The notes beneath the pieces are model-generated. The model saw only the letters and a list, made by a program, of their open reading frames with translations, made no database searches and was not told where the DNA came from. From Alienimonas californiensis (GTDB lineage: Bacteria; Planctomycetota; Planctomycetia; Planctomycetales; Planctomycetaceae): 64,000 nucleotides of DNA. Positions within the stretch are counted from its first letter, which is position 1, and every line of letters starts with the position of its first letter. A program made the position numbers and the translations under genes. This document shows, piece after piece, positions 1 to 42,341 of the stretch. The stretch lies in the NCBI RefSeq assembly GCF_007743815.1, contig NZ_CP036265.1:3180823-3244822 (forward strand). The letters run 5' to 3'.

Positions 1-666
1 CCGTCCGGCGACAAGGAAATCGCCACGCCCGGCAAACAGAACGCGGTCTATTACGCCGCCCTGCAATTGCCAATTTCGCAGGAACACCCGGACTATCCGG
101 CGTTGATGATCGGCGATTACATCCTCGGCTCCAGCGGTCTCTCCAGCCGGCTAGGCGACCGGGTCCGCCAGCAGGAGGGCCTCAGCTACGGCGTCGGTTC
201 GCAGCTCACCCCGCGGGTGAAGGATGAATTGACGACCTTCGGCGTCTACGCGATCACCAACCCGGGCAACGTGCCGAAATTGAAGACGGTGATCCGTGAG
301 GAACTGGACCGCCTGATCGCCGAGGGCGTCACGCCGGCGGAGGTCGACGCGGCCAAGACGAGTTACCTGCAAAAGCAGCGGGTCAACCGGGCCAGCGATT
401 CCCAGCTGGCGACCAAGCTCGCTTCCCAGTTGTACAACGACCGCACGATGGCGTTCACCGCGGAGCTGGAGGCGCAGGTCGCCGCCCTCACCGCCGAAGA
501 GGTGAACCGGGCGTTGCGGGAGCATCTCGACCCGGCGGAGCTGTACGTCGTCGTCGCCGGCGACATGGACGCACCGGACCAGGCCCCCGCGGACGTGCCC
601 GTCGGCGTGCCCACCGACCCGGACGCCCCGGCCCCGGACGGTGCGGCCGGTCCGGCGTCGCCGTAG
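1..666 (+). CDS. M16 family (insulinase-like) peptidase, C-terminal part
   Basis: The gene enters from the left edge in an open frame, so only the last 221 residues are visible. They match the C-terminal half of M16 zinc peptidases. LSSRLGDRVRQQEGLSYGV (from about residue 46) carries the R...GLSYGV segment that lines the closed chamber of these enzymes, and PGNVPKLKTVIREEL and TPAEVDAAK follow the usual helical layout. The zinc-binding HxxEH lies in the N-terminal half, outside the window, so activity cannot be judged. The last 40 residues are an Asp/Pro/Ala-rich tail. Planctomycete M16 proteins are usually secreted or periplasmic, and an unrelated M16-like gene sits at 40991-42292. A strong hairpin follows the stop. 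Confidence 0.85.
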   Translation, partial: PSGDKEIATPGKQNAVYYAALQLPISQEHPDYPALMIGDYILGSSGLSSRLGDRVRQQEGLSYGVGSQLTPRVKDELTTFGVYAITNPGNVPKLKTVIREELDRLIAEGVTPAEVDAAKTSYLQKQRVNRASDSQLATKLASQLYNDRTMAFTAELEAQVAALTAEEVNRALREHLDPAELYVVVAGDMDAPDQAPADVPVGVPTDPDAPAPDGAAGPASP

Positions 667-718
667 ATCGCGTTGATGGGCGGAGCCGGCGCCGGTCACG
701 GCGTCCTTTCGATGACGA

Positions 719-763
719 CCGCGGCGGCCGGGGGCGTTCCCCCGACCGCCGCGGTTCGCTTTC
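719..763 (+). terminator. Intrinsic terminator-like hairpin after the M16 gene
   Basis: CCGCGGCGG-C-CGGGGG (719-734), loop CGTT, then CCCCCG-A-CCGCCGCGG (739-754), followed by TTCGCTTTC. The 15 pairs are broken by one C/A mismatch. The T-run is weak, so this is a probable terminator only. Confidence 0.5.
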
Positions 764-853
764 GGGGCCGCGTTCCGCGGCGTTAGGTTGCGGTCGTGCG
801 AACCGGTTCGCACGCGTTCGCGTCGCGCTCCCCTTTGCTCATAGGCGTCCCTT

Positions 854-1837
854 ATGCTCGCTCGCCCCTTCGTCGTTGCGGCGCTCGCCGCGCTCTCCGG
901 AACCGCGTTCGCGGCGGAGGCGCCGGAGCCGACCGGCGACCCGGCCGTGGTGACGGAGACGCCGGGGCTGGTCGCGTTCTGGACGTTCGGCGAAGCCGCC
1001 GGGGAGCCGCGGCGGTCCATTGCGACGGACGAGCCGTTGCCCCTGGAGGAAGTCAGCGGCCCGATCGCCCGCGTGCCCGGCGGACCGTATTCGGGCGACT
1101 CCGCGGAGTTCAACGGCAAGCAGTACCTCAAGATCCCCTACGCGGAGACCGGCCCGCTGAATATCTCCGGGCCGGAGGCGCAGGTGAGCATGTTCGCCGC
1201 CGTGCGGATCGTCGATTTAAATCAAAGCCGCACGATCGCGGGGATGTGGAGCGAGGGCAAGGGCCGCAACGACGACACCGGCACCCGGCAGTACGCCCTG
1301 CTGATGAATATGCCGACCTACGGCGGGCCGCGGCAGCTCGTGCCGCACATCTCCAGCGAGGGCGGCGTCACCCGCCGGGCCGACGGCAGCGCCTTCCCCT
1401 GGTGCGCCGACTACGCCGCCTCCGTCAGCGAGGTTCCCACGGACGAATGGTGCACGCTGGGCTTCACCTACGACGGCGACTATATTCGCTCTTATGTCAA
1501 CGGCGTGATGGAGCCGCGGGAATTGGATCCCGAGAAAGACAAGCGGGACGATCGCTATTTCACGCAGGAAGGCCCGGACGGCGGGGACCGCGGGATGAAC
1601 CCGTATTATCACGGCCGCGGGATCTTCGCCTACGACCCGGGGAAGCACGCGGAGTCGAAGCCCGGCGGCGGGTCGGACTTCACCGTCGGCGCCCGCTACG
1701 CCGTCGGTTCGTTTACCCGGGAGGCGACGAAGGGCCGCTTCGGCGGGCTGGCGGTGTTCGACCGGGCCCTCACGGACGCGGAAATGCTGCGGCTGCACGA
1801 GTCGGCGAACGTCCCCGCATTGAACGCCGCGGACTGA
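854..1837 (+). CDS. Secreted LamG (concanavalin A-like) domain protein
   Basis: A 327-residue protein with a cleavable signal peptide (about residues 1-20, ending TAFA-AEA). One LamG/concanavalin A-like beta-sandwich domain fills the rest. It opens with [10 protein letters not shown] near residue 36 and closes with [20 protein letters not shown], the usual final strand and helix of this family in planctomycetes. The middle keeps the YVNG strand (RSYVNGVME). Such domains bind carbohydrates or act as structural modules of secreted proteins; no catalytic residues can be assigned. The ATG at 854 is chosen because the signal peptide starts there. The gene is monocistronic, convergent with the serine protease gene, with a palindromic element between them. 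Confidence 0.7.
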
Positions 1838-1853
1838 CGGTACAGTTGATACG

Positions 1854-1930
1854 AGCCCGATGCGCAAGCATCGGCCGTCGGCGCAGCCGTCGAGCGGAAC
1901 GACGCACGGCCGGAGCTTGCGCTCCGGGCT
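1854..1930. repeat. Long imperfect palindrome, GCGCAAGC family, copy 1
   Basis: Left arm 1854-1878 and right arm 1906-1930, 25 nt each, are inverted copies differing at four positions. Both contain AGCCCG..GCGCAAGC. Each arm also folds on itself: CCGATGC-GCAA-GCATCGG and CCGGAGC-TTGC-GCTCCGG. The element lies between the ends of two convergent genes (1837 and 1970), like the copies at 19237 and 25452, so bidirectional termination is the likely role. Confidence 0.7.
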
Positions 1931-1969
1931 GGGATCGAGCGACGCTTCGCCGAGAATTATCTCAACGTG

Positions 1970-2980
1970 TTAAACGGCGTCGTTATCCGGGGAGGCGTCG
2001 GCGGAAAGTGTGTTTTCGTCCTCCGTCGTCGGCGGGGCGAACAGCGCCTGCAGGCTTTCGACCGGCACGCAGTCGCGGAAGACCATTTGCAGATCCCGCT
2101 GCTGGCCGCCGCGTTCGCTGTAGTAGACGGAATCGGTGGTGGTCACGATGCCGACGACGGCGCCCTCGACGTTCACCATCGCGGCGCCGCTGCTGCCGCG
2201 GGCGTAGTCGGCGGTGACGGACAGCCGGGGCGTCTCTTCGCCGTGCCGGCGGGTCATGTGGCGGCGGGTCACCACGCCGCGGGAGTAGCTGAAGAACCGC
2301 CCCGCCGGGTGCGAGATGCAGTGCACGTCTTCCCCGAGCCGGCCGGCCGCCGCCAGCGGCAGGGCCGACAGCGTGCGGCCCTCGGGCAGCCCCAACCGCA
2401 CCAGCGCCACGTCCGCGGCGGGGTTCGCGGCGACCACCTCGACGATCGGCCACGCTTCTCCGCTGCGGGTCAGAGCGACGAACCCGGCCCGCTGGTCTTC
2501 GTCGTCGTCCTTGGCCCGACCGTGCTGCGGGGCGGCGTCCAGCACATGATAATTCGTCACGGCCAGCCCGTCCGCGGAGATGACGAAGCCGCTGGCGTTA
2601 TTGGACTCGAAGCGCTCGCAGTTCCTGCAGTAGTGGACGCAGGCGATAATGAGCGTCGCCGCCTCCGCGTCCGCCGCCGGCCCGCCGGGCTCGGAAAGCC
2701 CCGACGCCGGGGCCGGGAGGGGCAGCGGGCAGGCTCGGCGGTCCATCTGCTCGCGGAGCGTCGCCAACGGCAGCGTCTGGCCGTCCTCGACCAGCCGGCG
2801 CCCCTCGGCGACCACCGCGTCCCGGATCGCCCCGTCGTTCAGGAAGGACGCGGTGAGCGGGTTCGCCGCCTCCCCGGCCTGACCGGTCGGCGTCGCGGCG
2901 AGCGTCAGACCGAGGAGCAACCCCGCACAGGCGACGGGCGAGGCGAACGGGGACGCGAACCGGGGGATAAGGCGGTGCAT
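1970..2980 (-). CDS. Secreted trypsin-like serine protease (S1 family)
   Basis: A 336-residue secreted protease with the chymotrypsin fold. The triad is visible: His145 in TNYHVLD, Asp190 in AADVALVRL, and Ser264 in RGSSGAAM. The ATG at 2980 is preferred because it begins a signal peptide (MHRLIPRFASPF, then a Leu/Ala core to about residue 35); the open frame upstream is Arg/Pro-rich and not protein-like. Cysteines at 114, 118 and 121 (CVHYCRNC) just before the protease domain could form disulfides or bind metal. No PDZ domain follows, unlike DegP/HtrA proteins, and the C-terminus is an acidic tail. It is divergent from the sulfatase gene, so the two may share a promoter region. Confidence 0.75.
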   Translation of the reverse strand: MHRLIPRFASPFASPVACAGLLLGLTLAATPTGQAGEAANPLTASFLNDGAIRDAVVAEGRRLVEDGQTLPLATLREQMDRRACPLPLPAPASGLSEPGGPAADAEAATLIIACVHYCRNCERFESNNASGFVISADGLAVTNYHVLDAAPQHGRAKDDDEDQRAGFVALTRSGEAWPIVEVVAANPAADVALVRLGLPEGRTLSALPLAAAGRLGEDVHCISHPAGRFFSYSRGVVTRRHMTRRHGEETPRLSVTADYARGSSGAAMVNVEGAVVGIVTTTDSVYYSERGGQQRDLQMVFRDCVPVESLQALFAPPTTEDENTLSADASPDNDAV

Positions 2981-3176
2981 CGCGTCACGGTAAAGCGTGC
3001 GAGCGGCCCACGCTCGTGGAAAGTTCCTGACCTGGCCCCCGCCGGACCGGGGCGGCGTTCGGCATTCGCTGACCGTTTTGATCGGACTTTGGACCGCGAC
3101 CGCGCCGGTCGGTTGCCGGCGTTGCGGGCGACCCGTCAGAGTGGGCCGGCCCGCTCGCCTTCGGAAAATCAGCGCC

Positions 3177-4586
3177 ATGACGTTCTCCCCGCCGCCGTTC
3201 CTTTCGCGGTTCGCCCCGCTCGCCGCCGCGGTTCTGTTGTGGGGCGGAGCGACGCCCGCCGCCGCCGCGGAGCGGCCCAACCTCATCTTCGTCCTCAGCG
3301 ACGATCTCGCCCAGGGCGACGTCGGGGCCTACGGGCAGGAGTTGATTCAGACCCCGAATATGGACCGCCTCTGCGCCGGCGGGACCCGATACATGTCGGC
3401 CTATACGGGCACCAGCGTGTGCGCCCCGGCCCGGTCCTCCTTTTTCACCGGCCTGCACATGGGCCACTGTCCGACCCGGGCGAACCGGGAAATCGGCGCC
3501 GAGGGCCAACGCCCGCTGCCGGAGGGGCAGGTCACCGTGGCGGAGATTCTCCAATCCTCCGGATATCGCACCGCGACCGTGGGCAAATGGGGGATGGGGA
3601 TGTTCGATACGTCCGGCAGCCCGTTCAAAACCGGGATCGACCGCTTCTTCGGATATAACTGCCAGCGTCACGCCCACCGCTACTTCCCCGACTATCTTTA
3701 CGATAACGAGACCCGGGTCGAACTGCCGGAGAACGCCGACGGCCAACAGGGAACCTATGCTCAGGACCTGATTCAAAACGCGGCGCTGAGTTTCGTGAGC
3801 GACGCCGCGGCCGCCGACGAACCGTTCTTCCTCTTCTACGCCGCCACGTTGCCGCACGGGAAGTTCGAGATCGACGACCAGGGCATCTACGCCGACAAGC
3901 CGTGGAGCGAACTGGAGAAGAATTACGCCGCGATGGTCACCCGGCTCGATCACGACCTCGGCGAGCTGGTCGGGCTATTAGAGGAGAAGGGGGTCGCGGA
4001 GAACACGCTCATCGTGTTCGCCGGCGACAACGGCTCGTCCTTTAATCCGAACACGCCGATCGGCAAGCGGTTCGATCAGGCGATGGGCGGCACGCTGCGG
4101 GGTTATAAACGCGGTATGTACGAGGGCGCGCTGCGGCAGGCGGCGTTCGCCTACTGGCCCGGCACGATCCCGTCCGGGCGGGTGACGGACGAACCCTGGG
4201 CCTTCTGGGACCTGCTGCCCACCTTCGCCGAACTCGCCGACGCGGAGTTGCCGGAAGATTATGAAACCGACGGCGAATCGTTGGTCGGGTTCCTCAAGGG
4301 CGGCCCGGCCCCGCAGCGGGACTACTTCTACTGGGAACTGCACGAGTACGGCCCCGGCCCGATGCAGGCGATCCGCTGGGACGACTGGAAGGCCGTCCGC
4401 CCCGTCGCCAGCGGCCCGGTCGAGTTATACAACCTCTCGAAAGACCTTGGGGAGAAGGACGACCTCTCCGACGAACGCCCCGAACTGGTCGAGAAAGCGG
4501 TCGCGATGATGAACGCCGCCCGCACCGCTCACCCCGACTGGCCGGACCCGGCGACGGCCGAACCGCCGAAGCGGCGGCGGAACTGA
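3177..4586 (+). CDS. Secreted sulfatase (arylsulfatase, S1 type)
   Basis: A 469-residue exported sulfatase that hydrolyses sulfate esters, probably of sulfated polysaccharides. After a signal peptide (about 1-31) the fold starts at [16 protein letters not shown], with the metal-binding Asp pair 42/43. Cys82 in CAPAR lies in the C-x-P-x-R motif that a formylglycine-generating enzyme converts to formylglycine. VGKWGMG, the later LDHDLGELV and FAGDNGSS supply further active-site positions. Length matches the family. The ATG at 3177 starts the signal peptide. Sulfatases are abundant in planctomycetes. No glycosidase or carrageenan/fucoidan genes lie next to it, so the substrate is unknown. It is divergent from the protease gene. 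Confidence 0.9.
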
Positions 4587-7021: not shown

Positions 7022-9847
7022 TCAGGCCCACCGCACCGCCACGTCGCAGAGTTCGTAGCCGGCCAGGGGGACGCGGACGGCGTCGCCCTCGCAGATCAGT
7101 TCGGCCTGGGTCTCGCCGGCCAGCGTTCGCTTCGCCGCTCCGGTGGGGCGTTTGAAGAACCGGATCGCGGCGGTGCGGGTGCGGCCGTCGCTCTCCTGCA
7201 CGCGGAGCGTCGTCTCGCCCCCTTCGCCCCGGATCGACAGCACGCGGACGCCCGGGCTGTCGCAGGCCAGCAGCCAGCCGACCGGGCCGGAGGACGGCGG
7301 CCCGGCGACGGGTACCGGGACCGGCTGCGTGAGGAAGGCGTCGGCGGCCCGCATCGGGTGCGGGTCGTCCAAGGCGATTCCGAACCGCCAGACGCGGTCG
7401 TCGTTGGTCGGTTCCCCGGCGATCAGGAGCGGGCTGTCGAGCATCCGCCGGCCGCTGCGGGTTTGAAACGGGGCGTCCGGGGTGAGGACGGCGGTCCGCA
7501 GCTTCTTGTCGCCGTGCAGGCTCGCTAATTCCCAGAAGTGCGCCGACTCGAACGTGCCGGAGGCGGGCGCCGCCTGCCGGGAGCCCTGGATGGAACGGGC
7601 CAGCTCCGCCGTTTCGTCGTCCCAGGCCCACCGCAGCACGAGGTCGCCGGCCTCCAGGGCCGTCGCCGCGTCGGTGAAAGAGGCCTCGACCAGCGCCGTA
7701 CGCGAACCGCGGTCCAGCCGGACCCGCAACGTGAACCCGCACAGCCGGGCGCCGCCGGCGGGGTCGATCAGCGCCCCGCGGCTGACCAGTTCCCCACGGG
7801 CCGGGCCGGCGTCCACGAGGTCCCAGGTTTGCCCTTCGATGCGCACCGCCCGGCTGTAACGTTCCGGTTCATGTCCGTCGTCGGGGGCGCCCTTCAGCGT
7901 CCGCGGGGCGTGGAACCGCACCGCCGGTCGCATGCCCAGCCGAACGGGACTGCGGCCGTAGGTCTTCACCGTGGCGATCCCGCCGGTCGCGGGGTCCATG
8001 CGGACCTCGAACCGCTCGTTCCGCACCATGCCGGGCTCGGCGGTCTTCGCCTTGGATTTGGAGACCGGCGCCGTCTTCGCGGCTTTGTCCGGGAACCAGA
8101 CGAAGCCGCAGGGGGGAATCTCGAAGGTGAAGGACCGCTTCCCCACGACCTTCACCGCCGGGTGATCGGCCGGCGGGGCGGGGCCGACGTTGAGGTCGCC
8201 GCACTCCGTGCCGACCGTTTGGGGCGTCGGCAGCGGATTGAGCCAGAGCGTGCCCGGCCGGTCGCCCCCGCCGCGGCCGATCAGGGCAGCGAGTCGCTCC
8301 GCGGCGTCGGCTTCTCCGCCCGGCGAACCCAGCAGCCCGCAGAGGCCGGCGAGGAGCCCGTCCGTCCGGGCCTCCGCATCGGCACGGATCGCCCGGCTGT
8401 GGGAGGAGAGCGGCTCCGGCGAACCGGCCGCTGGCCCCGGGGAGCGGTACTTCCGCGGGTCCGCGGCGAACACCCGGGCGAAGGGGTCGTCCTCGGCGAA
8501 CATCTCGGCGAACGTGGCGAACTCCCCCAGCGCCGGCGAGAGCGCGGTGAGGGCCTTCAAATCGTCCAGCAGCGGGCCGGGGGCGCCCGGCCAGCGGGCG
8601 AAGGTGACGGCGACGGTCTGCTCCGCCTCGAACGCCTCGGCGAGGATCTCCGGCAGCTCCCAAAAGGAGGCCGCCGAACCCGCCGGCAGCGGATCGCGGG
8701 CGTGGGCGGGAATCTCACCGCCGGCGCCCGCCCACCGCACCCGCCCGGCCCCGTCCGGCGGCACGTCGCCGGGGCCGAACTTGAGGTGTAACGCCGCGTT
8801 GACTCCCATTGACTCCAGCAGTTGCGGCGTCAACGGGGTAAAACCGAAGTCGTAACGCCCCCAGACTCCCGGCGGACTCCCGAACAACTCCCGGAACGTC
8901 TCCCGGCCGGCCGTCAGGTCCGCGACGGCGGCGGGCACGTCCCGCAGCGCGACCGGGGCCTCCGTCTGCTCTCCCCCCACGGGTTCAACGCGGTCGCCGG
9001 CCTCGCGGATCGCGGCGATCAGGTCCGGCGAAGCGGCGGCGATCGTGCGCCAGTCGGCCCCAGTTCCGAGCAAATTCAGCGGCGGCCCGCCGGCGGCCGC
9101 GGCGGCGACTTCGGTTTTCAGCTCCGCTCCCGCCAGCCGCGGAATGACGAAGCAAAGGTCGCAGAACTTCGCCGGGGTCGGATAGAACCGCTCCCGGGCT
9201 TCGCGGAGCACCTCGGCGGCCTCGACCAGCCGGGCGTGCGCTTCCTCCCGGTCTCCCACGAACAGGGCGTCCGCGGCGGCGACGACTTCGGTGCGGAGCC
9301 GCGTTTCATCCAGCGTGCTGTAGTAATGCGTCCTGCGTGTGAGTCGTTCCACCCACAAATGGCCCAGGCCCAAGGCGAAGAACGGGTGCAGATCGGCGAC
9401 CGGCACGTCTCGCCGATCCGGCGGCAACAGCGGGGCGAGTGCCGACAGGCTCGCGGCGCGGTCCGGGCCGACGACCGCCAGGCGGGCGCCGGCTTCGGTT
9501 TCCCAGCCGTCGGGCAGCGTGTCGCGGACGAACTCCGGGATGAGGAACCGCCGGCCGCCGACGGGGCGGGGCGGCTGGTCGGCCATCACCAGGCGGGGCA
9601 GGGCCCGGGCGGCGGCCAGCAGGGCGGGGTGCCAGCAGAGGGCGAAGGCGTTCAGGGCCGCGGCCGCCCGGCGTTCGGGCAGGCGCTCCGGCAGGTCGTC
9701 CAGCCCGTGGGAAGGCAGCAGCAGGACGGTTTCGGCCGGTCCGTCTGGTTCGGAGACCGTCGTCAGGTCCGCCGTTGGGGCGGGCGATGGCGGGGGGCCG
9801 TCGGCCTGCGGGGCGTCGCGGTCCTCGGCGGAGTCGTCGGGTGCCAC
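7022..9847 (-). CDS. Large protein resembling GH38-type alpha-mannosidases
   Basis: A protein of about 941 residues. The N-terminal third (ALNAFALCWHPALLAAARAL; PPGVWGRYDFGFTPLTPQLL) has the look of the GH38/GH57-type catalytic barrel. The middle segment VRNERFEVRMDPATGGIATV matches the way the beta-sandwich of alpha-mannosidases starts. The C-terminus (LAGYELCDVAVRW) ends like that family. I cannot place the catalytic Asp residues, so substrate and activity are open. No signal peptide is evident. The frame stays open to 10087, but the extra N-terminal 80 residues are Arg/Pro-rich and overlap the next gene's start. The GTG at 9847 is therefore used, with low certainty. It is divergent from the PilM cluster. 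Confidence 0.55.
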   Translation of the reverse strand: MAPDDSAEDRDAPQADGPPPSPAPTADLTTVSEPDGPAETVLLLPSHGLDDLPERLPERRAAAALNAFALCWHPALLAAARALPRLVMADQPPRPVGGRRFLIPEFVRDTLPDGWETEAGARLAVVGPDRAASLSALAPLLPPDRRDVPVADLHPFFALGLGHLWVERLTRRTHYYSTLDETRLRTEVVAAADALFVGDREEAHARLVEAAEVLREARERFYPTPAKFCDLCFVIPRLAGAELKTEVAAAAAGGPPLNLLGTGADWRTIAAASPDLIAAIREAGDRVEPVGGEQTEAPVALRDVPAAVADLTAGRETFRELFGSPPGVWGRYDFGFTPLTPQLLESMGVNAALHLKFGPGDVPPDGAGRVRWAGAGGEIPAHARDPLPAGSAASFWELPEILAEAFEAEQTVAVTFARWPGAPGPLLDDLKALTALSPALGEFATFAEMFAEDDPFARVFAADPRKYRSPGPAAGSPEPLSSHSRAIRADAEARTDGLLAGLCGLLGSPGGEADAAERLAALIGRGGGDRPGTLWLNPLPTPQTVGTECGDLNVGPAPPADHPAVKVVGKRSFTFEIPPCGFVWFPDKAAKTAPVSKSKAKTAEPGMVRNERFEVRMDPATGGIATVKTYGRSPVRLGMRPAVRFHAPRTLKGAPDDGHEPERYSRAVRIEGQTWDLVDAGPARGELVSRGALIDPAGGARLCGFTLRVRLDRGSRTALVEASFTDAATALEAGDLVLRWAWDDETAELARSIQGSRQAAPASGTFESAHFWELASLHGDKKLRTAVLTPDAPFQTRSGRRMLDSPLLIAGEPTNDDRVWRFGIALDDPHPMRAADAFLTQPVPVPVAGPPSSGPVGWLLACDSPGVRVLSIRGEGGETTLRVQESDGRTRTAAIRFFKRPTGAAKRTLAGETQAELICEGDAVRVPLAGYELCDVAVRWA

Positions 9848-34413: not shown

Positions 34414-34441
34414 AGCGATCAGTCGCTTCCGATGCGACCTC

Positions 34442-34504
34442 CCGGGGACTCTCCAAAGGCCTTTCGGTCAATCCTCCCCGGCGTTCGCTTTGGCGAACGT
34501 TTTT
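34442..34504 (+). terminator. Attenuator-like hairpins in the DUF1559 leader
   Basis: CCGGGGA (34442-34448) pairs with TCCCCGG (34475-34481), with AAAGGCCTTT inside the loop. Directly next comes CGTTCGC-TTTG-GCGAACG (34482-34499) followed by five T (34500-34504), a textbook intrinsic terminator. It lies after the promoter and 36 bases before the start codon, so it should reduce or gate read-through. A small hairpin (GTCGC/GCGAC, 34422-34438) precedes these. Confidence 0.6.
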
Positions 34505-34539
34505 GTCCCGCTTCTCCTTCTCAGACCCGACCGCACGTC

Positions 34540-35649
34540 ATGACGTCCTCCACACCGAGGCTCCGGAAGTCGACCCGGGCCGGCTTCACGCTGATCGAAC
34601 TCCTGGTGGTGATCGCGATCATTGCGATCCTAGTTTCCCTGTTGCTGCCGGCCGTGCAGCAGGCGCGCGAGGCCGCCCGCCGCAGCCAGTGCCAGAACAA
34701 TCTGAAACAGCTCGGCCTGGCCGCCCACAATTATCACAGTACCTACAAGGTGTTCCCGCTCAGTTACGGCGGGCCGTCCGCCGCCAGCGAGCGACTGAGC
34801 ATGTTCGTCGGCCTGCTGCCGTACCTGGATCAGACCTCCCTGTACAACCAGATCACCAACCCGCTGACGACTTACAAGGCCGACGGCTCCGTCAATCGCG
34901 AGTGGCCCGCCTACGGCAGCGCCCCGTGGGACCAGAACTATCCCCCGTGGCGCGTCCAGCCGGCGTCTTTCCTCTGCCCCTCCGACGGCGCCCGCGTGAT
35001 CGACGAAGCCGACACCAACTACGCGATCAACTGGGGCGACAACGCCAGCGGCGCCGGCGACCCCGATGCGGACGAGGCCCGCGGCGCCGCGATCCACGGG
35101 GACTCCTTCGGCTTCCGCGACTTCCGCGACGGGACGGTCTCGACGCTGCTGTTCGGCGAAGTCTGCCGCAACGACGGCTCGGACGCCTACCAGACGAACT
35201 GGGCCCTGGGCCTCTCCGGGCTGAATCACGGCGCCCGCGGATACGACACCATCCCTGAGGAGTGCATCGAGGCGGTCGCCGACCCTCAAAACCCGGGGTA
35301 CTACAACACGTCCGTCACCTTGGGCGGAAGCGGCGGCAACGGCCGATACCGCGGCGACCGCTGGATGGACGCCTGCATGACGGCCACGCAGTTCATCACC
35401 GTCATCCAGCCGAACGGCCCGTCCTGCTCCGCCCTGACCGGCAACAGCGAGAACGGCCTGATGACCGCCGGCAGCTGGCACACCGGCGGGATTCAGGTCG
35501 TGATGGTGGACGGCTCGGTGAACTTCATCAGCGACACCATCGACAACGGCGACCTCGGCCGCGCCCACGTCACGCGGGGTAAGAGCCCCTACGGCGTCTG
35601 GGGCGGCCTCGGCACCCGGGCCGGCGGCGAGGTGAGCGACGAGTACTGA
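34540..35649 (+). CDS. DUF1559 prepilin-like protein
   Basis: A 369-residue member of the planctomycete-expanded DUF1559 family. The N-terminus is a type IV pilin leader: basic residues, then [23 protein letters not shown], cut after Gly by prepilin peptidase. Next is the family signature [18 protein letters not shown]. The globular part has [14 protein letters not shown] near the end, the usual DUF1559 closure. These proteins are thought to be pseudopilins or surface proteins; their function is unproven. The ATG at 34540 fits the leader. It has its own promoter, attenuator-like leader and terminator. It could be an export substrate of a pilus-like machine such as that at 10.1-16.6 kb, which is inference. 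Confidence 0.88.
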
Positions 35650-35700
35650 GTTCATCAAAGGATTCCCCCGAATCCGACGCATCGAAAACGCGTCCCCCGC

Positions 35701-35735
35701 GGGGCGGCCGGTTTCCCCCGGCCGCCCCGTGTTTT
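35701..35735 (+). terminator. Intrinsic terminator after DUF1559
   Basis: A perfect 11-bp stem, GGGGCGGCCGG (35701-35711) with CCGGCCGCCCC (35718-35728), loop TTTCCC, followed by GTGTTTTT. Confidence 0.8.
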
Positions 35736-35961
35736 TGTTGAGCCCCCGACCGCGCACCCCGCGTCCTGCGAGTCCTGCCCCGGCAGAGCCCAGACCCAGT
35801 ACGCCCCGCGGTCCCTCGCCAGTGCCACCCGCCCGAAAGCAGGCTGCCCCTCAAAGGGCTCACAACAATTCCCCGATCTCGGCCTCTGGGAACGCCCGGC
35901 GGGGGCCGCCCGGCGGGCCAATGGGGGAGCCAGCCCAAGAATCGCAGGGCATTTCTTCGGA

Positions 35962-36080
35962 TTACCCGGAAAACCAGGCTCGTAGCCTGTGGGTAAGGAG
36001 CCGCCGGGGTTCGCCCCGGAGCGGTTCCGTCCCGGCGGTTCGCCCCGTCGCAACTTTTTCTCTCTTACGAAGGAGGCTCC
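35962..36080 (+). promoter_or_regulatory. Structured leader before the Gly/Tyr-rich protein gene
   Basis: The leader can fold into TTACCC...GGGTAA (35962-35967/35991-35996) enclosing CAGGCT-CGT-AGCCTG (35975-35989). A second stem is CCGCCGGG/CCCGGCGG (36001-36008/36031-36038), overlapping a GGGG-TTCG-CCCC tetraloop hairpin. GGAGCC at about 35998-36003 is complementary to GGCTCC (36075-36080), just after the Shine-Dalgarno site. The structures therefore could control ribosome access. No known riboswitch consensus was recognised. Confidence 0.4.
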
Positions 36081-36081
36081 G

Positions 36082-36510
36082 ATGAACTCCGTACGACTGC
36101 GGATTCGAACGCTGTTGATCTCCGCCGCGGCCCTCACCGGCATGGCCCTGCTGCCGACCTCGGCGAGCGCCCAGTACGGCTACGGACTGGGAAACTACGG
36201 CTATAACTACGGCGGTCTGGGCTATAACTACGGCGGTCTGGGCTACGGGGGGTACGGCTACAACCCCTACTCGTCCTACGGCTACAACCCCTACGGTCTC
36301 GGCGCCTACGACGCCGGCGGCCTCTATGACGACGACTGGTACTACGACTCTTACGGCGGCCTCGGCTACGGCGGACGCGGCTACGGCGCCCGCGGTTACG
36401 GCGGCCTCGGCTACGGCGGACGCGGTTACGGCGGCCTTGGTTACGGCGGCTTCCGCGACGACGACGTCTACGGCGGCTACTTCGACAGCGGCGAATCCTT
36501 CGACTTCTGA
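36082..36510 (+). CDS. Secreted Gly/Tyr-rich repeat protein
   Basis: A 142-residue exported protein. A signal peptide (about 1-31, LPTSASAQYGYG) precedes a mature chain almost wholly of Gly, Tyr, Asn, Arg and Leu, in the tandem units YNYGGLG, YGGRGYGARG and YGGLGYGGRG. An acidic interruption (DDDWYYDS) sits mid-way and the end is FDSGESFDF. Such Gly/Tyr chains are found in matrix, adhesive or phase-separating proteins; the function here is unknown. The start is firm: AAGGAGG (36070-36076) lies five bases before the ATG, unusually strong for this window. It is followed 84 bases on by another secreted low-complexity gene. Confidence 0.75.
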   Translation: MNSVRLRIRTLLISAAALTGMALLPTSASAQYGYGLGNYGYNYGGLGYNYGGLGYGGYGYNPYSSYGYNPYGLGAYDAGGLYDDDWYYDSYGGLGYGGRGYGARGYGGLGYGGRGYGGLGYGGFRDDDVYGGYFDSGESFDF

Positions 36511-36594
36511 GAAGGACTTCGGCCTCGACCCCGCCCCCTCTCACGCCCCGAACTCCGACTTCCCGCAAAGCGCTCCCACACCAAGGCGTTCAAA

Positions 36595-37446
36595 ATGATG
36601 TTGCAACACCCAATCGCGCGCTGGACCCTCGGCCTGACCGCCGCCGCCCTCGCCGCCGCCCCGCTCGCCGCGCAGGACGACGACCGTCCGCCCCGCGACC
36701 GCGACCAGCCCCGCGTCCAACGCGACCGCGACCAGCCCCGCGTCCAACGCGACGGGGAACGACCGGACCAACCCGCCCGCCCGCGCGACGGCGAGCGACG
36801 CGACGGCGAGCGACGCGACGGCGAGCGGACCGCGGAGCAGGAGGAGGCGATGACGCACTTCCTCGCCGGCTACTACGCCGGGTACTCCGACGGCTACGGC
36901 GACGGTTCCGACGACTGGGTCCTGTACGTCACGGAGCGGCAGCGGCGGCAGCGCGACCAGCGGAAGGCCGCCGGCCGCGACTCGCAGCGGATGCAGGAGG
37001 GACGCCGGAATCTCCGCGAGCAGCAGCGAGACCGCATGCGGTCTGAGGCCGAGGGCGTTCGCACCGTCTCCGTCGAGGGGAAAGTGATCGGCACGAAGAC
37101 GGTCCCGATCCGCGGCACCGACGTCGAACACCTGGTCGTGCGGATCGAAACCGAGTTCGGCGACCGCCGCGTCGCCGACCTGGGGCCGACGGACGCCACC
37201 GCCGACCTGGACCTCTCCGAAGGAGACGAGGTCCAGGTGACGGGCCATCCGATCGCCGCCCGCGGCATGCTGGTCGTCGCCGCCCGCAAGGTGACCTCCG
37301 GCGACCAGACGGTCGAGATCGAGTACCGCCGCCCCAACCGCAAGAATGAAGACGGCGCAGACCGCGAGGCCGGCGCAGATCGCGAGGCCGGCGAGGAGAC
37401 CGATCGCCCACGCCGCGGCGGGAACCGTCTCGAACGGCAGCCCTGA
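36595..37446 (+). CDS. Secreted Arg/Asp-rich repeat protein
   Basis: A 283-residue protein. The signal peptide ends near residue 25 (APLAAQDDD). The mature part starts with charged tandem repeats (QPRVQRDRD twice, then RDGER three times). A Gly/Tyr/Asp segment (GYYAGYSDGYGDGSDDW) echoes the preceding gene. Residues about 155-250 look folded (VSVEGKVIGTKTVPIRGTDV, VRIETEFGDRRVADLGP, GDEVQVTGHPIAARGMLVV) and could be an OB-fold-like barrel. The tail repeats ADREAG. No family is recognised. Its position behind the Gly/Tyr-rich gene suggests a joint extracellular role. A strong terminator follows. Confidence 0.65.
   Translation: MMLQHPIARWTLGLTAAALAAAPLAAQDDDRPPRDRDQPRVQRDRDQPRVQRDGERPDQPARPRDGERRDGERRDGERTAEQEEAMTHFLAGYYAGYSDGYGDGSDDWVLYVTERQRRQRDQRKAAGRDSQRMQEGRRNLREQQRDRMRSEAEGVRTVSVEGKVIGTKTVPIRGTDVEHLVVRIETEFGDRRVADLGPTDATADLDLSEGDEVQVTGHPIAARGMLVVAARKVTSGDQTVEIEYRRPNRKNEDGADREAGADREAGEETDRPRRGGNRLERQP
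36694..36825 (+). repeat. Coding tandem repeats in the Arg/Asp-rich gene
   Basis: A perfect 27-bp unit occurs twice head to tail (36694-36720, 36721-36747). A 15-bp unit, CGCGACGGCGAGCGA, occurs three times (36781-36795, 36796-36810, 36811-36825; last base differs). Both unit lengths are multiples of three, so copy changes would keep the frame. Confidence 0.85.
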
Positions 37447-37978
37447 TCGCGCCCGACGTGAGGCCGCCCCTCGAGTGAGGCCGCCGCCGACGACGCCCGT
37501 GCCCGCCCGCCCCCCGCAGGGGGGCGGGCGGGTTGTTTCGTGCCTGATCTGTTCCGTGCCTGATCGCAGATACGGCTCCAGCGCCGCCAACGCCGCCCCG
37601 ACCTCCGGCGTCCTCTGTTCCCCGTCGTGCATCAGCCCTTCTCGGATCGAACCTCAAACGGCCCGAGTCTGAACCCCGCCGGCCGGCTCTGATAGAGGAA
37701 CTGACGTATTTTAAACCCGGCCGGGCGGAATGTTTGAGAACGCGGGACGACGGATTTTCGCGGGTTCGGTTCCGGCCCCCCGAATTCCTCAACGCCGGGG
37801 TGGCCGGGGCGCCCGAGCGAAAGCGGATGCGAAGTGAGAGGCCGCCCCGGGCGCCCGGCCGCGTCGCGTTTTCGGCGCCGACATGTTATGCCGCTCGGGA
37901 TTCGGCCCCCGCGCGGGCCGGCGTCGCCCCGCCGGTCCGGCGGGCGGTCTGCCGCCGACCCCCCGCCCGGTTCCGCCG
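37447..37978. other. Intergenic region before the HNH gene
   Basis: 532 bases holding the terminator at 37502-37538. Beyond it are a duplicated CGTGCCTGATC (near 37540-37566) and an AT-rich patch (TATTTTAAACC, about 37707-37717) that could contain a promoter. No gene is seen. Confidence 0.4.
37502..37538 (+). terminator. Intrinsic terminator after the Arg/Asp-rich gene
   Basis: A perfect 14-bp stem, CCCGCCCGCCCCCC (37502-37515) with GGGGGGCGGGCGGG (37519-37532), loop GCA, followed by TTGTTT. Confidence 0.75.
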
Positions 37979-38674
37979 ATGCCCAATCGCAGTAAGAAAA
38001 AGTCTCTGAACTCCCTGCGGATCGACCGAGACGGGATCACGAAGCGGCGGAGGTCGCCCCGATTCAATTCGCGCTACCTCGAGTCGGCGTTAAAGAAGCG
38101 GAGGATTGAGGAGGCGGCGGAGGAGGAATTGCGGGAGCTCGATCCCGAAATCGACTGTCTGGTCTCCGACTCCAGCCTCGACGCGGACGGCGACGGCGAC
38201 TTCATCCTGAAGATTCCCGGCCGTCCCGGGAAGCCGGCGAATACGTGGAACCTCGTCTACGGCCACCGGGCGGTGCGGAGGATGAACGGGTTGGCCGTCG
38301 GGTTCACGGTCCCGTGCGACGAGCCGGGCTGCCCCGACCGCCTGATTGTCCTCAACGGCAAGGGGCAGGAAGTTCCGGGGATCACCAGGAAGCCGCTCAA
38401 GCCGCCGGTCTGCCATATCGTCCCCTGGGCGGCCCTGGAGACGGAACTGATTCAGAAGGAGAGCCAGGCCAAGAAACGGCTGCGGGACGATTTTCGTAAG
38501 GCGGTCTGCTGGGAGCCGACCAACCTGCAACCCGGTCACGCGGCGTGCAACCTGCGGGGGGTCAAGACGACCGCCCAAACCGTGACGGCTACCGAGGCGA
38601 AGGCCGCCCGCCAGGTCATCGCGAAGGTGGAACAAGACTACGCGACAAAGAAACAGTCGATCTGGGCCGGCTGA
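37979..38674 (+). CDS. HNH-type nuclease-like protein
   Basis: A 231-residue cytosolic protein. The C-terminal part has the HNH (beta-beta-alpha-metal) layout. His146 lies in VCHIVPWAA, Asn182 in TNLQPGH, and His187...Asn191 in PGHAACNLRGVKT, resembling the NLxPGHxxCN block of HNH nucleases. Cys145 and Cys190 flank it and Cys113/Cys118 (PCDEPGC) could add a structural zinc. The N-terminal 60 residues are very basic (PNRSKKKSLNSLRIDRD, SPRFNSRYLESALKKRR), suited to nucleic acid binding. The ATG at 37979 is chosen; an upstream start would add Pro/Arg-rich sequence. G+C is somewhat lower than in its neighbours. It is convergent with the OLD-like gene, so not its operon partner. A toxin, homing-type or defence nuclease are all possible. 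Confidence 0.65.
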   Translation: MPNRSKKKSLNSLRIDRDGITKRRRSPRFNSRYLESALKKRRIEEAAEEELRELDPEIDCLVSDSSLDADGDGDFILKIPGRPGKPANTWNLVYGHRAVRRMNGLAVGFTVPCDEPGCPDRLIVLNGKGQEVPGITRKPLKPPVCHIVPWAALETELIQKESQAKKRLRDDFRKAVCWEPTNLQPGHAACNLRGVKTTAQTVTATEAKAARQVIAKVEQDYATKKQSIWAG

Positions 38675-39042
38675 CGCCGGGGCGCCCGGCCCGCACCGGT
38701 CCTCCGCGTCGGGAGGGCGACGACCGCGTTTTGCGCGCCCGTCGTGTGCTACTGGCTCAGCCAGTGCCGGAGTGACGTGCGAGAACTTCGGACCGGCCCG
38801 AGCCATCGACAGCCGAACGCACTGGCAGAGCCAGTGGCACCCGAAAGGGCAAGGCGCCGGCGGACCCTCACCAGTGCCACCCGCCGACGCGGCCGGCGGA
38901 GCGATCGGGCGTCACGGGTTCCGGGGGCGGCCCGGCCCCTGCCACTGCAAGGAGGCACGCCCCCCGCGGGCCGACCCCGGCCACCCACGGTTTCGAATGA
39001 GCGGACCCTCCGGTCACCCCGGCCACCCGCCGCCCGTCGAAC
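38675..39042. other. Intergenic region with palindromic repeats
   Basis: 368 bases between the convergent HNH and OLD-like genes. It holds the CACTGGC repeats at 38752-38885. Beyond them lies Pro/Gly-biased GC-rich sequence with no credible gene. G+C drops abruptly at about 39045, where the OLD-like gene ends. Confidence 0.5.
38752..38885. repeat. Cluster of CACTGGC palindromes, left of the OLD-like gene
   Basis: ACTGGCT-C-AGCCAGT (38752-38766), CACTGGC-AGA-GCCAGTG (38821-38837, then GCACCCG) and a half copy CCAGTGCCACCCG ending at 38885. A related palindrome lies on the other side of the OLD-like gene (40951-40969). Confidence 0.75.
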
Positions 39043-40845
39043 TCAGTAACCGGCTAGTCGCTCGATTTCATTTCGTTGCCGTCTGGCCATCTGTCTAATG
39101 AATTCCCAGATGTCGTCTTCGCGTGGGTCAGAATCGCGAATCGCATTGGCTATATGGTTCGCCCATTCGGCTTTCTTTTTCTTGCTAGGCCCCCCTGACG
39201 TAAGCATTTCGGCCCAGTCTTCGAGTTCGCCTACAGGTACAAGAAATACTCCCGCACCCCTACACTTGCTCAGAAAGGCTGTCAGGTTCGAATAGACGCC
39301 GTACGAATGGAACTCCTCTAGACCCTTCTTAAGTCGGGAGGTCTGTGAGAGACCCGCGCTAAGATCTCCAAGTGTACGCCGCGTTTGGTTTAGCTGAGTC
39401 TCGTCCGTCCAGTCCAGTTTGGCAGAGAGGATCGAGGTAAGTCCGGATCGAACTGCCGCTTCATCGTAAACAGGGCCAAGTGCCTTCACCTCTTCAACCA
39501 GCTTTCGGCAGTCCTTAGTAAGATCTTCGGCGACGGGCCCGGGTGCTAGTGCAGAAACAATCGATTTGAAGATGTCAGGCGATCGGATGATGTCCAAGTC
39601 GACAATGACGCAGATAGGTATGCGAAGCCTTGCGTAAAGTTCGCAGGGATCTGCGGCACCGCCCATGCCGCCAACCGACACGAAATGAACATCATGTTTA
39701 AACTCGGCTGACACTTTTTCCCAAACAGTTCCGTAGACCAGTCGGTCTCCCTCGCCTTCAACCACGGTCACGGCCTCCGCGAAAAGGCCATCTAGAATCG
39801 CTTCCGATTTTGTGCTCGGCTTGCGAATTGACGCTCTGAGCAACTCGCTTTCGATCCGTTGCCCGGAGAAGTTTGTTCCCGCCCTTGAAAGTCGAATGAC
39901 GTCTAGATACTCAGTCTCCTCGATGATTCCTCGAAGAACGTGGCTGCTATGTGTCGCGACAAAGGTTGTGCCCGCGTCGGAGGTGCCGTATCGGCCGATG
40001 AACTTTCCAAGCGAATGGGCTTGTGGCGGGTGAAGGCACAACTCGGGTTCATCAATTAGGATGACTGGGCGCTGGCCGAGCAAAAGCGAGATGCAGATCG
40101 CCACATACGATTTAAACCCGTCTCCCTCGTTCTCGATCGTCCTAAACTTTGTCATCCTAGATGGCTGTGTTCGATCTGCGTCCGGGGGCAATGCCGGGCC
40201 ATCTCCAACCCGTAAGCAGAGCACGCCCCCGCGTGTTGGATCTACCCAGATGGATCTGCCGAAGGTTCTCTCTGTCTCTGCGGTGAGGGCATGTTGGGCG
40301 TCTTCGTTCAAGTATAGCGCTTGTATTTCTTTCTCGGGTGTAGTCTTCTCGTAGTCAAAGCTTGGGACTTCGTTTAAGGAATTTAGTCGACCTCCGAGGA
40401 AAAGGGACGCTATGAATGACCGGCCAAACATTGAGAGGAATTCGTCCTTTCCGCCTTTCCGGCCATTTGTCGATGTTCCCATTCTGGTGTAGTAGAGCTG
40501 GGCGAGGTTGCTGTCGGCCTGCCATCTGTCACTGCTGCCCCCAAACTCGAATACTCGACAACTAATGTTGTGATTTGAATTGCTGCCGGGGACCACGCGG
40601 ATGTGCTCCGCCTCTTCAAGGGCCGCTATGATTTCGGGTAGCGTACCCTTGCGAGTAAGGGAGATTTCCTCACAGACCACGAGGTCCCTTGGCTTGCCGA
40701 GCATCCTGTAGTGGATGTCTTTAAGGAATTGTGTCTTTCCAGCCGAGTTCGGCCCGATTACGACATTGAGCCCTTTTGGTTCGATCTTGCCGATGTTTGG
40801 GATGGAGATCGACGTGAGGGGGTTCAGCTTTCCCAGGTGTTGCAT
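39043..40845 (-). CDS. OLD-family-like ATPase with TOPRIM-like nuclease domain
   Basis: A 600-residue protein. The ATPase half has Walker A GPNSAGKT (31-38), an ABC-type signature region NEGDGFKSYVAI (239-250), Walker B VILIDEPELCLHPP (261-274) and the H-loop VATHSSHVL (His299). A TOPRIM-like half follows: Glu363 in VTVVEGEGDRLVYG, the Gly turn VSVGGMGGAADP, and Asp416/Asp418 in ICVIVDLDII. This order is that of OLD nucleases, used in phage defence as single genes or in Gabija, PARIS and some retron systems. No partner gene follows it on this strand. G+C is near 50% against about 70% around it, and codon use is unlike the neighbours. The start at 40845 fits the strand and helix before Walker A. 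Confidence 0.8.
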   Translation of the reverse strand: MQHLGKLNPLTSISIPNIGKIEPKGLNVVIGPNSAGKTQFLKDIHYRMLGKPRDLVVCEEISLTRKGTLPEIIAALEEAEHIRVVPGSNSNHNISCRVFEFGGSSDRWQADSNLAQLYYTRMGTSTNGRKGGKDEFLSMFGRSFIASLFLGGRLNSLNEVPSFDYEKTTPEKEIQALYLNEDAQHALTAETERTFGRSIWVDPTRGGVLCLRVGDGPALPPDADRTQPSRMTKFRTIENEGDGFKSYVAICISLLLGQRPVILIDEPELCLHPPQAHSLGKFIGRYGTSDAGTTFVATHSSHVLRGIIEETEYLDVIRLSRAGTNFSGQRIESELLRASIRKPSTKSEAILDGLFAEAVTVVEGEGDRLVYGTVWEKVSAEFKHDVHFVSVGGMGGAADPCELYARLRIPICVIVDLDIIRSPDIFKSIVSALAPGPVAEDLTKDCRKLVEEVKALGPVYDEAAVRSGLTSILSAKLDWTDETQLNQTRRTLGDLSAGLSQTSRLKKGLEEFHSYGVYSNLTAFLSKCRGAGVFLVPVGELEDWAEMLTSGGPSKKKKAEWANHIANAIRDSDPREDDIWEFIRQMARRQRNEIERLAGY

Positions 40846-40950
40846 GTTCGAGTTCTAAACGAGTGCTATAAGCGAGTGCGGCTTGCGTTTCGCCGGTGGA
40901 GGGTGCAGTTTCCCTCAGTTCGACGCCATCCCTTCAAGCGGCGTCGCTCG

Positions 40951-40969
40951 CACTGGCGGGACGCCAGTG
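40951..40969. repeat. CACTGGC palindrome, right of the OLD-like gene
   Basis: CACTGGCG-GGA-CGCCAGTG, followed by GCCCGCGG. Same core as the cluster at 38752-38885. It lies between the start of the OLD-like gene and the end of the M16-like gene. Confidence 0.75.
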
Positions 40970-40990
40970 GCCCGCGGGCTCCGTCTTTTC

Positions 40991-42292
40991 TCAATCCGGC
41001 CAGTCCAACGCCGCCGGGCCCAGCGTCAGGGCCGTCGGCGGGGCGGGGGGGCGGGTGGCGAGGTATTCGCTGACGTTCTCGGCGGTGAGGGCGTTCACGG
41101 CGTCCAATGTCTCCGACAGCGGTTGCACGCGGCCGAGGTGGCGCCAGTCGCGCGCTAATCCGTTCGCCCGGGCGGTCGTGCTTTCCTGGCTCATCACCAG
41201 GCCGCTCTTCGCGCGGGCCACGCAGCGGGTCAGTTCGTCCTTCGTCACGCCGTCGCGCAGGCGGGTCAGTTCCTCCAGCAACACGTCGAGCGTTTGCTGG
41301 GCCCGCTCCGCGGTGGTGCCGGCGTAGCAGAACAGCCGGCCCTCCTGGGCCGCGTCCGGTCCCGGGCCGGCCTTCAGACCGCTTAAACTGGCCGAGACGC
41401 TGTAGCACAGGCCACGCTTCTCCCGGACCTCCGTGAACAGCCGGCTGCTCATCCCGCCGCCGAGGATCGCGGCGGCGGCCCAGGCCTCGTAGTAGCCCGG
41501 CTCGCCGTAGGCCGCGGCGGGCAGGGCCAGGGCGATGTGCGTCTGGGCGCCGTCGTGGTGCAGGTGGTCCCGGGCCGGGCCGCGGGGGCCGGGTTCGATC
41601 GGCGGGTCGGGCTTTTCTTCCCAGTCCTCGAAGCACTCCGCGGCGAGGTCGAACCAGGCCTCCGGGTCCACGTGCCCGGCGACGGCGAGGACCGCGTGAT
41701 TGGGCCGGACGGCCGTGCGGTGGAGGTGCACGACGTCGGCGTACGTGAGGGCGTCCAGGCCGGACAGGGTGCCGTCGGTCGGCAGGCCCCAGGGGGCCGG
41801 GTAGGTGCGGCGGCGGAGCTCCAGCATGACCCGTTGGGCCGGTTCGTCCTCGATGGCCCGCAGGCTCTGGCGGAGGCCGTCCGCGGCGGGGGCGAATTCC
41901 TCCTCGGGGAGGTGGGGATCGCGGAACAGGTCCCGGTAGATGCGAAGGGCTTTGGGAAGATTCTCCGCGACGGTGGCGGCGGAGACGGAGAGGTGGCTGG
42001 CGCCGACGGATTCGCCGCGGTTCACGCCGAGGTCGTCCAGGGCGTGGGTGAAGCCGCGGTTGTCGAGGTCGCCGCTGCCGCGGGTCAGCAGGTCGCACAG
42101 CAGGGCGGCGCAGGCGTTCTTACCGGGGGGATCGAGCGAACTGCCGGCGGGCACCATCAGGGAGAAGGCGGCGCTTTGGACGCGCTTCATCGGTTCGACG
42201 AGGACCGTCAGCCCGTTGGCCAGCGTGCGGTGCTGCGTGCTCGGCCGGGCCGCGGCGGTGGGAACGGGCAGCGAAGGAGACGGTGCGGGCAT
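40991..42292 (-). CDS. M16-family peptidase homologue without the zinc motif
   Basis: A 433-residue protein with the M16 fold: RTLANGLTVLVEPMKRVQSA at the N-terminus, FRDPHLPEEEFAPAADGL in the middle, and FTEVREKRGLCYSVSASLSG, the R...GLCYSV segment of the C-terminal half. Where active enzymes have HxxEH, this sequence reads KNACAALLCDLLTRGS, so zinc cannot be bound in the usual way. Many bacterial M16 systems pair an active and an inactive subunit, and this looks like the inactive type. No active partner is adjacent. No convincing signal peptide; the ATG at 42292 is used because the upstream frame is Arg-rich. It is separated from the GNAT gene by a purine/pyrimidine tract. Confidence 0.75.
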   Translation of the reverse strand: MPAPSPSLPVPTAAARPSTQHRTLANGLTVLVEPMKRVQSAAFSLMVPAGSSLDPPGKNACAALLCDLLTRGSGDLDNRGFTHALDDLGVNRGESVGASHLSVSAATVAENLPKALRIYRDLFRDPHLPEEEFAPAADGLRQSLRAIEDEPAQRVMLELRRRTYPAPWGLPTDGTLSGLDALTYADVVHLHRTAVRPNHAVLAVAGHVDPEAWFDLAAECFEDWEEKPDPPIEPGPRGPARDHLHHDGAQTHIALALPAAAYGEPGYYEAWAAAAILGGGMSSRLFTEVREKRGLCYSVSASLSGLKAGPGPDAAQEGRLFCYAGTTAERAQQTLDVLLEELTRLRDGVTKDELTRCVARAKSGLVMSQESTTARANGLARDWRHLGRVQPLSETLDAVNALTAENVSEYLATRPPAPPTALTLGPAALDWPD

Positions 42293-42341
42293 ACGGCGAG
42301 TGTCCGTCCGCCGGGCGGGGCCGACAACCACGGGGGACATC

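Follow-up and report, generated by a model that had tools for sequence, protein, structure and literature searches.

Within a 64,000-nucleotide stretch of the Alienimonas californiensis chromosome, referred to below as the window, we find a gene that quite probably encodes a stand-alone OLD-family defence enzyme of the Class 1 type, which would act much as P2 Old does and would be carried as swappable, horizontally acquired cargo at a variable chromosomal site (Table 1). The reading frame runs from an ATG start over 600 codons without an internal stop, is present as a single copy in the 5.475-Mb genome, and its product matches two Pfam families above their cut-offs, AAA_21 (4.6e-13) and OLD-like_TOPRIM (PF20469, 3.3e-11), with the N-terminal ABC-type ATPase and C-terminal TOPRIM of the OLD family in one chain. 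The proposal of an earlier note on this DNA, that the gene is a candidate single-gene defence system, is supported by its fold, its solitary context and its mobile homologues, the role itself being a predicted one. The same note had put the gene near 50% G+C in a 70% window; the low G+C stands, with exact values of 53.6% for the gene and 71.4% for the rest of the window. No other stretch of this length in the window is as low in G+C (minimum elsewhere 65.2%; z of about -6.1, only indicative because the windows overlap), and the GC3 of the gene, 0.587, compares with 0.85-0.94 for seven ORFs in its neighbourhood.

Table 1. Coordinates of the candidate gene, its predicted domains and the features around it (window positions unless a contig is named)
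Feature	Position	Strand	Basis
OLD-type ATPase-TOPRIM protein, single-gene defence candidate	39043..40845	-	600-aa ORF, Pfam, AlphaFold2 model, PDB matches
N-terminal ABC/SMC-type ATPase, residues 1-342	39820..40845	-	conservation in 100 rows; SMC/Rad50/PtuA head matches
C-terminal TOPRIM, residues 343-600	39046..39819	-	separate model; Z-scores to OLD structures; P2 Old motif alignment
Helical stretch between the D-x-D and E-x-E strands, about residues 423-530, with K506-x-G508	39256..39579	-	secondary structure of models; family spacing
Right boundary of variable cargo	40846..40882	.	homology to G001 DNA breaks off at 40882, 36 bases ahead of the OLD start codon
Conserved M16 peptidase gene serving as anchor, outside the system	40991..42340	-	Pfam M16; 89% orthologue in sister species G001
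GmrSD (type IV restriction-like) gene of G001	L156 (G001:C192) 137-1876	-	GmrSD_N 2.8e-33, GmrSD_C 7e-12
HNH-like ORF, 231 aa	37979-38674	+	pattern HIVPW...NLQPGHAACN by eye
DUF1559 prepilin-like gene	34540-35649		Pfam

The whole-protein AlphaFold2 model, built on a 100-row family alignment (pLDDT 93.4, pTM 0.91), retrieves the Class 1 OLD of Thermus scotoductus (Ts OLD, PDB 6P74) as its first Foldseek match in the PDB (3.4e-10), followed by the retron Eco8 OLD (2.2e-9) and GajA, and VIA-align places residues 2-357 at Z 13.4-15.1 to the heads of SMC, Rad50 and PtuA. Because the ATPase head dominates the whole-model VIA-align rows, the TOPRIM domain was modelled separately (258 residues, pLDDT 94.5). 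On its own it superposes on the C-terminal region of Xcc OLD (Z 13.8, rmsd 3.0, 164 residues), on Bp OLD (Z 12.5), Ts OLD (Z 10.4, rmsd 3.3, 147 residues) and GajA (Z 9.8), with lower scores for retron Eco2 (8.1), Eco8 (7.9) and a PARIS chain (7.6); with the unrelated fold of lumazine synthases at 7.3, the modelled matches to the Eco8 and PARIS TOPRIM domains are hardly above unrelated folds. By Foldseek the isolated domain reaches 1.6e-4 at best, and in a search of predicted viral structures the matches were chiefly ATPases of giant viruses or of transporter type, the best at 1.1e-10. The TOPRIM fold claimed by the earlier note, which had named structure prediction as the check, is borne out by the AlphaFold models and their comparison with Xcc OLD, Ts OLD and GajA: as modelled, the domain is a real, OLD-type TOPRIM.

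The ATPase carries a Walker A motif (G31-T38), a signature-like GDG (241-243), a Walker B DE pair (265-266), a D-loop H272 and an H-loop H299. Of the 100 rows of the family alignment, 99 retain Walker A G36/K37 and the remaining one has a gap there, and D265/E266, H272 and H299 are found in every row; E363, D367, D416, D418 and E542 of the TOPRIM domain are likewise present in all 100 rows and E540 in 96. The Walker A, Walker B, H-loop and TOPRIM E...D-x-D motifs described from the gene alone are thus complete and near-invariant. By analogy with the metal A and metal B assignments given for Ts OLD and P2 Old (PMC7049728), the predicted metal A residues are E363, D416 and D418 and the predicted metal B residues D367, E540 and E542, and the set seen in OLD-family TOPRIM domains (E and D-x-D for metal A, E/D at +4 and x-x-E for metal B) is complete in the window protein. 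In our reading of the alignment, the P2 Old residues E398/D453/D455, E402, D541/E543 and K550 (PMC7049728) would correspond to E363/D416/D418, D367, E540/E542 and the K555-558 loop; the +4 spacing is shared. The family profile aligns the G-D-I-E...K...W of P2 Old to the family G-E-L-E...K...W, a stretch that scores 11 bits only, and it is there that the lysine-rich loop 555-558, before W561, takes the place of P2 K550; in 81 of 100 rows at least one of the four residues preceding W561 is K or R, so that conservation at the K550 position is incomplete, a point that weighs against the reading as a defence enzyme.

A long, mostly helical insert divides the TOPRIM active site in two, the D418-to-E542 spacing ranging over 79-137 residues with a median of 119 (100 rows) and the D418-E540 distance in the window protein being 122 residues. 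The last helix of the insert, residues 517-530, may in the models be part of the TOPRIM core. Ahead of G539, 97 of 100 rows have a K-x(1-2)-G motif, a pattern that two control stretches of the insert show in 12 and 19 of 100 rows; the lysine of the motif is an alternative candidate for the catalytic one. A K-x-G motif at fixed spacing was dropped: once gaps are left out of the count, K-x-G occurs in 31 of 100 rows, and most of the 97 are K-x-x-G.

Against this background, the protein can be set beside the OLD systems already described. P2 Old resembles it as the product of one ATPase-TOPRIM gene with the same metal-binding set and a C-terminal G-(D/E)-x-E...K...W, and relatives of the window gene sit at the P2 gpA-portal locus. 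It nevertheless lies across a tree branch of SH-aLRT 99, has a shorter D-x-D to E-x-E spacing (86 residues, D455-D541, in the numbering of PMC7049728) and matches the PADLOC Old model over its full length at 712 bits, whereas the window protein reaches 56 bits over residues 258-427 only and so falls outside the P2 Old subfamily as defined by a full-length match. Ts OLD is the best PDB match both by fold and by family profile (7.2e-19) but is described without the Insert 3 helix, with 45 residues from D433 to S478 (PMC7049728); the window protein departs from this Ts-type TOPRIM without an extra helical insert, which leaves the class name unaffected, as Class 1 is defined by context. Gabija GajA and the Class 2 OLDs (Xcc, Bp, B. 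cereus) are close in TOPRIM fold, the higher Z-scores of 12.5-13.8 being to isolated Xcc and Bp domains, but a UvrD-type match is found neither in the window nor recurrently near the homologues, and the tree separates the family from a PADLOC-typed GajA. The Class 3 retron Eco8 effector, similar in whole-model fold, is the best of the 11 NCBIfam matches listed, all of them below cut-off (40.8 bits against 250), and neither RVT_1 nor retron RNA was found at the window locus. PARIS (Class 4) shares the ATPase head, seen as an AriA profile match, and the PADLOC AriAB match is part-length (36.8 bits); its chain 8ux9_A, presumably AriB, fits the TOPRIM domain no better than unrelated folds do, and the window protein joins in one chain the ATPase and TOPRIM that Class 4 keeps on separate chains, although fused PARIS forms exist (PMC9122126). 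In PADLOC-DB 2.0.0, whose model library gives no cut-off of its own, the protein has partial matches to AriA, Old, ATPase-Toprim_I-B, GajA and others, the best at 60.7 bits, and no match at 1e-20.

As solitary OLD genes are what is described as Class 1 (PMC10568477, PMC7049728; for YbjD, PMC13261556), the suggestion of a defence system not yet described holds in part: a solitary OLD is a known Class 1 kind, with P2 Old as its best-known example, whereas the lineage, together with its long helical TOPRIM insert and K-x(1-2)-G motif, is apparently new. No lineage-specific model is visible in PADLOC-DB 2.0.0 or NCBIfam 20, and we found no study tied to the lineage in the literature, where the OLD clades U1-U11 (PMC12796447) and VcOLD (Patel and Seed 2025) are known to us by description or citation and not by sequence comparison; the clade may correspond to one of those that PMC12796447 counts as uncharacterised, "at least 11" in number (U1-U11).

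To place the protein among its homologues, we used 80 of 420 relatives from a GTDB contig scan, among the remainder of which rarer contexts may sit, and 40 viral loci from 41 IMG/VR relatives. Alignment A3 comprises the window protein and 99 of the 114 members of 500-720 aa (from 120), A4 the window protein and 67 members, and A5 the window protein and 68. In a quick tree with SH-aLRT support only and long reference branches, in which the branching order among references is unreliable, 70 family rows separate from 11 reference OLDs (including P2 Old, YbjD and one PADLOC-typed GajA; Ts OLD, VcOLD and Eco8 were left out) with SH-aLRT 99. The window protein falls in a seven-row clade (support 100) with members from Nodosilinea, a betaproteobacterium, Syntrophaceae, Dehalococcoidia, a planctomycete and a prophage of the family genome G002; the cyanobacterial Nodosilinea homologue is 57% identical over 563 columns. 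The spread of this clade over five phyla (Planctomycetota, Cyanobacteriota, Pseudomonadota, Thermodesulfobacteriota and Chloroflexota) therefore indicates horizontal transfer. The family profile scores its Streptomyces and Lactococcus plasmid members at 400-489 bits, whereas P2 Old scores 88, a GajA 68 and YbjD 10. Against the PADLOC Old model, 47 of 69 family members have E-values of 1e-20 or lower, down to 1.9e-30, and GajA is not among the PADLOC families listed for the 69. By these profile scores, the family is a distant relative of Old.

Closer to home, the gene is rare. Among 98 relatives of the source genome, long matches occur in G021 and G002 only, with eight others short or weak: the G021 copy is 62% identical over residues 136-600 and, on another contig, 45% over residues 5-138, and the G002 copy is 41% identical. 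Five of 294 genomes of the phylum, the source genome included, have a match at E <= 1e-40, and the sister species G001 (draft genome) has no match to the gene. Foreign composition, patchy spread and mobile homologues uphold the earlier claim of horizontal acquisition, and we conclude that the gene is horizontally acquired. Its homologues, too, are usually low in G+C, with 89 of 120 loci more than 5 points below their surroundings and one more than 5 above (near-duplicates included).

Some homologues sit in mobile or defence-related DNA. The G002 copy lies between prophage terminase and portal genes; 13 of the 40 viral loci have, on the same strand, a relative of the L113 integrase (L113 checked by PHROGs) whose end lies no more than 17 bp upstream, these 13 being related prophages and not independent events, and the L140 homologue likewise directly follows an integrase. 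Three of the 40 (L114, L117 and L136) have a gpA-like gene upstream and a portal-like gene 33-37 bp downstream (PHROGs on L117 only), and at L130 a portal-like gene lies at 136 bp; the gpA-portal locus is described as the P2 defence-gene hotspot (PMC9122126). Other homologues are borne on Streptomyces and Lactococcus plasmids. In a type I R-M island of a betaproteobacterium (L025, 1-9833) the homologue follows HsdS, GmrSD_N and HsdR genes and a YgjP-like metallopeptidase gene, and direct BLAST finds relatives of the confirmed L025 HsdS or HsdR near L025, L072, L082 and L091 only. A tblastn search of the Phages collection with the window protein gave no match, and family members are present in IMG/VR contigs.

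The copies beside integrases, in the P2 hotspot and in the G002 prophage, together with the precedent of P2 Old (PMC10568477), would also fit a superinfection-exclusion gene that mobile elements keep for their own benefit and of which the chromosomal copy is a relic. We consider this reading unlikely: Pfam searches of ten ORFs flanking the gene found no phage or integrase gene, and the reading overlaps with that of a horizontally acquired defence enzyme, from which it differs mainly in the beneficiary.

The chromosomal site itself has changed hands. Window positions 40882-42336, which begin at the right boundary of the variable segment, match positions 1902-3376 of a sister-species contig (L156, G001:C192) at 85%. 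There, a GmrSD gene lies 137 bp after the stop codon of the M16 peptidase gene on the same strand, and in the window the OLD gene lies 145 bp after the equivalent stop. Two unrelated defence-type genes therefore took the same spot behind the same M16 gene, which suggests a small defence-gene exchange site, although the swap concerns two species and one junction, and the sister-species contig ends 136 bases past the GmrSD stop. Left of the OLD gene, no syntenic DNA match was found in G001, only repeats and DUF1559-type matches. Behind the M16 gene of seven other family genomes there is no recognisable defence gene; after the M16 orthologue comes a second M16 gene in G002, G004, G018 and G059, other genes in G005 and G013, and the contig end in G003. 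Dispersed, partly palindromic intergenic repeats (CACTGGC...GCCAGTG) flank the OLD gene at 38760-39030 and 40882-40975, the window stretch 38760-41000 has 15 matches in G001, and the repeats were possibly involved in the swap. Further left, the stretch 34432-38760 has 70 matches in G001, nearly all within the DUF1559 gene.

OLD proteins need not be defensive, as illustrated by archaeal Cran1, which is reported to have an essential cellular role (PMC12796447), and an ATPase head closest to SMC and Rad50 would equally suit a cellular OLD protein engaged in DNA maintenance or the cell cycle. A core function of this kind would predict vertical inheritance, whereas the gene is rare and patchy among the genomes searched, foreign in composition and represented by homologues on phages and plasmids, all of which makes a cellular role quite improbable. 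The neighbourhood survey that the earlier note had put forward as a check points the same way, with contexts that are variable, often mobile and without a conserved housekeeping setting.

To determine whether the gene stands alone, the predicted neighbours of 129 loci were clustered and, separately, Pfam and PADLOC were run on 125 of 126 neighbours within 600 bp at the genome loci L019, L021 and L023-L102, the one dropped being the N-terminal half of the split L024 OLD gene. Where loci had no annotation, neighbouring genes were predicted with a simple scorer of our own, which may miss small genes. Among the Pfam families listed (the first 25 of 125) none occurs in more than four of the 125 neighbours, the commonest being integrase (4) and HMGL-like, resolvase, IPMS_D2, SLFN-g3 and Fic (3 each), and among the first 25 of 211 PADLOC families MTase_I comes first, with 3 of 125; recurrent clusters over the 129 loci are mostly phage genes from related prophages. 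Defence genes are thus a minority of immediate neighbours in genomes, which counts against a defence role. As single occurrences are hidden in such pooled family listings, a BLAST probe for UvrD and reverse transcriptase was also run; it found a UvrD-like ORF near 2 of 129 loci (divergent ones may escape, and 81 loci have 3 kb on both sides) and a protein with an RT-like motif 1.7 kb from the L032 homologue on the opposite strand. The genome holds four UvrD-helicase (PF00580) matches and one RVT_1 (PF00078) match, none of them inside the window, in keeping with the absence of helicase and reverse transcriptase asserted earlier; the sole RVT_1 match, at G000:C1:2460993-2461544, is separated from the OLD gene by about 0.76 Mb. 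At the Rfam gathering threshold, window positions 30-50 kb contain a tRNA only and no retron RNA, and no retron RNA was found at nine close homologue loci.

By these searches, together with Pfam on ten flanking ORFs and PADLOC on one of them, the gene is solitary, as had been supposed, and, as a single gene without a helicase or reverse transcriptase partner, a Class 1 OLD by context, a kind already described. That it is half of a two-gene system, with the next gene, the HNH-like ORF, or another gene as partner, is very unlikely: the ORF, which is unmatched in Pfam, in the PDB, among plasmids and in nine relatives, may belong to the same acquired segment, but it is convergent and forms no operon with the OLD gene, it was not found in G021 or G002, both of which have OLD homologues, and no partner recurs among the 125 homologue neighbours or in the neighbour clustering, phage genes of related prophages aside.

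In the preferred reading, that of a self-sufficient Class 1 defence enzyme, the SMC/Rad50-like ATPase would sense or gate a phage-induced state and switch on the putative two-metal TOPRIM nuclease of the same chain, whose cutting of DNA or tRNA would stop phage growth; P2 Old, as described in papers citing the original work, is triggered by RecBC inhibition and cuts host tRNA, and Ts OLD cuts DNA (PMC7049728). The infected cell would probably be killed or arrested, as by P2 Old, and the gene would be swappable cargo at the variable site. Whether a solitary (Class 1) bacterial OLD can on its own drive broad anti-phage defence is posed in a review as a question still to be answered (PMC10568477), and the clade offers more than 100 homologue loci from many phyla as one-gene test cases, some of them in a known defence hotspot and with a clear structural feature to mutate. 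We tentatively entertain, as a further and rather doubtful possibility, that the clade forms a class of its own among self-sufficient OLD defence enzymes, where the long helical K-x(1-2)-G insert between the TOPRIM active-site halves supplies the catalytic lysine or the recognition of substrate or trigger, and that it confers broad-spectrum one-gene immunity across many phyla and phage types.

Individual homologues show further variation. The L028 homologue (7713-9839) has about 98 extra N-terminal residues with, by eye, a winged-helix DNA-binding look, possibly a built-in regulator. Broken copies occur in Gemmatimonas, where the gene (L024, 8001-9782) is split over two frames, and in G021, where its N- and C-terminal parts lie on separate contigs (L019, 9111-10779, and L020, 120-569), one of them adjoining what looks by eye like an IS-like ORF.
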